Of a DNA stretch of 45,991 nt, positions 45,124 through 45,229 are shown in pieces (position 1 is the stretch's first letter; each line of letters begins with the position of its first letter). The DNA is from an uncultured archaeon. Lineage in GTDB: Archaea > Halobacteriota > Methanosarcinia > Methanosarcinales > Methanoperedenaceae. The position numbers and the translations under genes are program-made. Under the pieces are notes generated by a model. That model did not search any database. It saw only the letters and a list, made by a program, of their open reading frames with translations, and was not told the DNA's origin. The stretch lies in assembly GCA_902386205.1 (NCBI GenBank), contig CABMIH010000074.1, positions 1-45,991 of the forward strand. Reading direction: 5' to 3'.

Positions 45124-45135
45124 GGCTGTCTACTG
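45124..45135. promoter_or_regulatory. Putative nitrogen-control element at amt
   Basis: GGCTGTC-TACTG on the plus strand, about 25 bases downstream of the amt TATA box and so at its predicted transcription start. The same GGCTGTC core with the flank CAGTA on the opposite side occurs at the same place before nifH. Confidence 0.4.
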
Positions 45136-45197
45136 TACATTTAATATTATTTAAATTTAACTACAACTTCATTTGCACTATCTTTATACTGAAAATC

Positions 45198-45208
45198 TAT
45201 ATATATTA
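45198..45208 (+). promoter_or_regulatory. TATA box of nifH
   Basis: CTATATATATT, placed to start transcription near 45229 and give a leader of about 22 bases with GAGGAGAA as ribosome binding site. Confidence 0.55.
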
Positions 45209-45217
45209 TAAAATCTC

Positions 45218-45229
45218 CAGTAGGCTGTC
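45218..45229. promoter_or_regulatory. Putative nitrogen-control element at nifH
   Basis: CAGTA-GGCTGTC, about 25 bases downstream of the nifH TATA box. It shares GGCTGTC with the element at amt, and its CAGTA is the reverse complement of the TACTG found there. Confidence 0.4.

Follow-up and report, generated by a model that had tools for sequence, protein, structure and literature searches.

Divergently transcribed amt and nifH in this archaeal genome share an element of about 20 bp, CAGTA-N6-CGTWTRCC when each is read on its own transcribed strand, and both copies are very probably binding sites for NrpR, the nitrogen repressor of archaea, with an operator form characteristic of the order Methanosarcinales. 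The kind of operator is already known; what is new is the lineage-specific set of them. The window, which is the whole stretch of 45,991 nucleotides analysed here, is contig C74 of a 2.79-Mb genome (G000, the home genome). Its Amt is 91% identical to that of Candidatus Methanoperedens (L053), the closest named relative found. To the left, amt is followed by genes for a PII protein and a thermosome, and nifH runs to the right up to the contig end. The 152-bp gap between amt and nifH holds two divergent promoters (Table 1).

Exact matches to CAGTANNNNNNCGTWTRCC occur twice in the window, at 45117–45135 on the reverse strand and at 45218–45236 on the forward strand. In the direction of transcription, each copy consists of CAGTAG followed by a pseudo-palindromic core, which is CAGTAGACAGCC at amt and CAGTAGGCTGTC at nifH. 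The element begins ∼13 bp past the TATA box, and the expected start site, ∼25 bp downstream of the TATA box, falls within it. The distance from TATA box to element is nearly fixed, and that from element to start codon varies. Additionally, a TACTGA-type element upstream of the TATA box is kept at nifH in the genus, with none seen at amt; its copy in the window, TACTGAAAA, is a possible site for an activator (NrpA-like).

Table 1. Positions of genes, promoter features and predicted operators in the window, with related loci in other contigs and genomes
Feature	Position or locus	Strand	Basis
nifH	45252..45989	+	TIGR01287, 421 bits over cut-off; reaches contig end
amt, ammonium transporter	43798..45099	-	TIGR00836, 481 bits
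PII protein (glnK), downstream of amt	43449..43787	-	PII models are the best matches
nifH TATA box, TATATATA	45198..45205	+	Sequence; aligned TATA column, near-fixed spacing to operator
amt TATA box, TTTAAATA	45148..45155	-	Sequence; aligned TATA column
nifH operator, 21-mer CCAGTAGGCTGTCGTTTACCT, predicted NrpR site over expected start	45217..45237	+	Exact pattern match; PWM; model
amt operator, 21-mer ACAGTAGACAGCCGTATGCCT, predicted NrpR site over expected start	45116..45136	-	Exact pattern match; PWM; model
TACTGAAAA, nifH-specific, upstream of TATA box	45187..45195	+	TACTGA in 14/24 genus nifH upstreams
Structured glnA leader	G000:C85:1585-1695 (L218, L387), plus 28 others within L366-L395		
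Operator 45–52 bp before kdpA (potassium pump subunit)	L356 (G023:C60), L359 (G020:C95), L360 (G015:C5)		
nrfHA behind nif-type promoter with operator	L358 (G017:C27), L361 (G003:C10), L363 (G014:C8), L182 (G024:C33)		

The first-pass annotation had noted, within 45124–45229, GGCTGTC-TACTG at the predicted amt start site and CAGTA-GGCTGTC at that of nifH. These sequences and coordinates are correct: on the forward strand the former lies at 45124–45135 and the latter at 45218–45229, and each spans the zone past a TATA-like box where transcription is expected to start. The mirror arrangement that it saw in them is mostly an accident of the pseudo-palindromic core: CCAGTAGGCTGTCGTTTACCT (nifH) and ACAGTAGACAGCCGTATGCCT (amt) have the same orientation relative to transcription. 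We therefore rejected the mirror arrangement as the key feature, as the identity of the 7-mer is not conserved either; the core letters at amt in relatives are GATAGCC, GGTATCC or AGTTACC, and a shared GGCTGTC occurs only in the home genome. GGCTGTC itself was also rejected as a motif, with a frequency in the window that equals chance (6 occurrences, 4.6 expected). The dyad symmetry of the element is weak and several registers compete, the best being AGGTA-N6-TACCT with a mean complementarity of 0.50, compared to 0.46 for the next.

Absence from orthologous amt-nifH regions had been named beforehand as a result that would refute the annotation; the element was found in them, at both ends and directly past the TATA box, in 12 of 12 complete gaps of the genus. 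The gaps were extracted from 13 genus loci with both genes in view, and the thirteenth (L004) is truncated and shows the amt side only. A third operator lies within the longer amt-nifH gap of G003 (L023, G003:C24:70077-70121). Across the 31 genus genomes, an exact search for CAGTANNNNNNCGTWTRCC returned 42 matches, compared to 4 for the reversed pattern; 37 of these stand before amt or nifH, as placed by tblastn on fetched loci or by coordinates relative to amt and nifH matches. Of the remaining five, two precede nrfHA, another two (both CAGTATCCACACGTATGCC, in G014 and G024) we take as chance, and one, CAGTAAAAAACCGTATGCC in G007 (L169), lies off any recognised promoter and is likewise taken as chance.

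Position weight matrices (PWMs) trained without the tested genome placed 29 of 33 amt and 17 of 24 nifH upstreams above all of 1498 control windows drawn from the window; these statistics, like the genus counts and those of the model below, treat related genomes as separate, and the cross-family comparison is independent of that. In the window, the nifH site scores 30.9, with a null maximum of 10.4, and the amt site scores 31.5. Among the four amt upstreams that fail, two have mis-set starts but carry the site (L317 and L028), and two belong to distant paralogues (L319 and L320). Of the seven nifH upstreams that fail, five have aligned variants of the site in its usual position (G020, G021, G022, G025 and G028); in the other two, from G014 and G024, the PWM scan of the 24 genus nifH upstreams found no site. 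A sequence-only model of TATA box plus element, built from 33 sites, recovers the amt and nifH sites in the home genome with E-values of 1.5e-13 and 3.5e-13, respectively, and its next best match there has an E-value of 0.012. The three genus genomes without a strong match (G011, G026 and G027) also yielded no amt and no nifH match. A scan of the home genome with the consensus and two mismatches was rejected as a regulon finder (59 matches, compared to 45 for the reversed control). The element is also found at amt copies located away from nifH. Regulation of amt and nifH by one common regulator, as the first-pass annotation had suggested, is well supported by sequence comparison, since the element is conserved, its spacing from the TATA box is fixed, and it recurs at these separate amt copies and at glnA (see below).

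The same module lies directly past the TATA box at nifH in other families (ACAGTAGGATGCCGTTGTA, ACAGTAACATACCG and GTACATAGGATTCCGTTGTAC), and takes the form GTACAACGGTTACCGGCTTCCGG in genomes that we take to be Methanosarcina-like (G105, G120, G132, G136 and G140; the name of the order is likewise our assumption). At the corresponding place in Methanosarcinaceae-like genomes, the amt promoter reads ACAAGCACTTACCGGTTGCCG or ACACATAGCATCCGTCTTCC. Outside the genus, a TATA box followed by ACA-N7/8-CCG, a pattern written after inspecting those promoters, is present at 20 of 26 nifH promoters (0.08 expected from randomised sequences) and at 8 of 9 amt promoters (0.006 expected). The genus PWM alone, a test less fitted to the order-level sequences, yielded little: 8 of 27 nifH upstreams (a set that includes one genus member, G004) and 7 of 9 amt upstreams at p<0.01, with some of the nifH matches off-site. 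The simplest reading is that the nifH and amt elements across the order are forms of one NrpR operator.

The element lies at promoters of nitrogen-assimilation genes (nif, amt/glnK and glnA). Excerpts of published work (PMC10714827, PMC11456600) give nif, glnA1 and glnK1/amtB1 as NrpR targets in Methanosarcina mazei, and the element is common to the nifH and amt promoters of the Methanosarcina-like genomes. What ties it to NrpR is homology between sites rather than a consensus alone. There are two NrpR homologues in the home genome: an NRD protein, and a protein with a winged helix and regulatory domain (HTH_12 + NRD1_2) whose gene lies directly behind glnA. Titles of cited work on M. mazei likewise name two such proteins, NrpRI and NrpRII. 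The first-pass annotation had looked for the NrpR operator, found it absent and proposed another nitrogen regulator. For GGAA-N6-TTCC, the form given for Methanococcus maripaludis in the accessible part of PMC2723118, the absence stands: the window contains no exact match and the amt-nifH gap none with one mismatch, and the 27 one-mismatch matches in the window compare to 25 expected. It does not extend to NrpR operators generally, and another regulator is probably the wrong conclusion.

The alternative that survives best is that a different repressor or activator took over from NrpR in this lineage, acting through the same element on the same regulon. In its favour, the window's own sites are no close match to the published NrpR half-sites. 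However, almost all genomes of the genus (30 of 31) and of the order (145 of 149) have NrpR, and amt sites with exact GGTA-N6-TACC exist in the genus (GGTATCCGTATACC, in G005, G006 and G007). Furthermore, Methanosarcina-like genomes have the homologous element at the promoters of amt and nif, which are known NrpR targets there according to the excerpts cited above. We consider replacement of NrpR unlikely.

If NrpR is the binding protein, as we infer, NrpRI (winged helix and NRD, encoded beside glnA), probably together with NrpRII, would occupy the element when ammonium is sufficient. Bound over the predicted start sites, it would hinder RNA polymerase or TFB, and so block transcription of amt-glnK leftwards and of nif rightwards. 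In methanoarchaea in general, 2-oxoglutarate, which rises under nitrogen limitation, is described as releasing NrpR (accessible part of PMC11957540). The same switch would here turn on both operons together when nitrogen becomes limiting.

A copy before glnA had also been proposed for checking, and one is present in the home genome: ATAAACGGAAACCTACAG (G000:C85, score 19.6) lies directly past the glnA TATA box and is inverted relative to transcription. A loose pattern finds an RCGGTAGCYTA-like inverted copy directly past the TATA box at 26 of 29 glnA-leader loci. This inversion bears on two further alternatives. The overlap with the expected start site and the fixed distance from the TATA box are what one would expect of a strong core-promoter feature, such as an initiator or start-site sequence of highly expressed genes that serves no specific regulator. 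However, the model search of the home genome found no other promoters with the element, the targets are nearly all nitrogen genes, and the element is inverted at glnA, making this explanation very improbable. A start site within the element would mean that part of it is transcribed, as befits an RNA-level element in the 5′ leader, i.e. a translation or stability signal. Such a signal is slightly less credible still, since the orientation flips at glnA, which argues for a DNA operator, and since the position is tied to the TATA box and not to the start codon. Finally, chance likeness of two 12-mers within one genome, for which the chance frequency of GGCTGTC and the near-chance count of the longer CAGTANNNNNNCGTWTRCC-type pattern with up to two mismatches in the window (5 matches, 1.9 expected, not significant) might speak, is refuted by the orthologous regions and by conservation across genus and order, and can be dismissed.

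Behind the inverted operator, a conserved leader of ∼110–170 nt precedes glnA, or precedes a 31–43 aa ORF that lies before glnA-nrpR. A leader model built from 11 sequences matches 26 of 31 genus genomes and two of three family relatives, with one weak match (E 0.05) elsewhere. Compensatory changes occur in the long stem that closes the leader. The unfitted alignment, of 11 rows, has 8 cells with changes on both sides, a number reached by 2 of 500 shuffles, although its count of further pair types is nothing unusual (274 of 500 shuffles). In the model-fitted 31-row alignment, which leans towards structure and includes two opposite-strand rows, both-side changes occur in 14 of 19 pairs (0 of 500 shuffles). 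An Rfam search of the window and five leader loci found no family for the leader, only tRNAs. Judged by sequence comparison, the leader may act in cis, or it may be an sRNA. Some of the short ORFs behind it (L368, L371, L378, L387 and others) resemble the N-terminus of a long GlnA, MATPTPEKLLEFIKEKNVN, as though only the start of a long glnA had survived.

Strong model matches besides amt and nifH include kdpA (TIGR00680) in G015, G020 and G023, a glnA-like start in G028 and, in G018, an ORF of 161 aa with a PII gene behind it, as well as a 51-aa ORF. The nitrite-reductase genes nrfHA lie in G003 and G017 behind a nifH fragment of 114 aa, which is 54% identical to NifH over 90 residues, and in G014 and G024 behind a 41-aa ORF. 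NrfH scores over the cut-off in G014 and G017, and G024 has an NrfA-like partial protein. G014 and G024 are the same two genomes whose nifH upstreams have no site. The nrfHA arrangement looks like promoter capture, which would put an ammonia-forming nitrite reductase under nitrogen control. A more elaborate picture can be offered tentatively, as possible rather than probable. The NrpR regulon would include a new structured RNA in the glnA leader, either a nitrogen-responsive riboswitch or an sRNA154-like regulator, that adds an RNA layer; in some lineages, a nif-type promoter with a decayed nifH start would have been captured for nrfHA under nitrogen-starvation control, and the operator would have spread to kdpA.

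These predictions amount to a testable nitrogen regulon for Methanoperedens, which are uncultured anaerobic methane oxidisers; the literature searched yielded no description of their nitrogen control. One switch would link ammonium uptake to nitrogen fixation and glutamine synthesis, and some species would have nitrite ammonification and potassium uptake under it as well. The NrpR operator appears to have drifted so far from the Methanococcus form found in textbooks that looking for the latter wrongly implies a missing regulator.

Among known systems, the glnA leader has a precedent in sRNA154 of M. mazei, an NrpR-linked RNA (PMC3177094, PMC5867862, in part), by regulation and not by homology. 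The protein family is represented structurally by MJ0159 (PDB 3NEK; PF01995 and HTH_12), the only solved relative found for the home HTH+NRD protein, and the home genome combines this protein with the NRD protein, both known here from sequence. The potential NrpRI operator of M. mazei, located at sRNA154, is given as GGTA-N6-TACC in the accessible part of PMC3177094; the Methanoperedens element resembles it in being found at nitrogen-gene promoters and in overlapping the region just past the TATA box. Its register is matched exactly by some Methanoperedens amt sites, whereas the copies in the window depart from it by two bases at nifH (GGCTGTCGTTTACC, a chance-level likeness with 159 such matches in the window) and by three at amt (GACAGCCGTATGCC, counted by eye). 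The Methanoperedens sites are also extended to the left by a constant CAGTA and to the right by CGTWTRCC. Compared to the M. maripaludis operator, as given in the same part of PMC2723118, the half-site bases differ, but the targets (nif, glnK-amtB and glnA) are the same and the 14-bp geometry (GG-N10-CC) appears to be.
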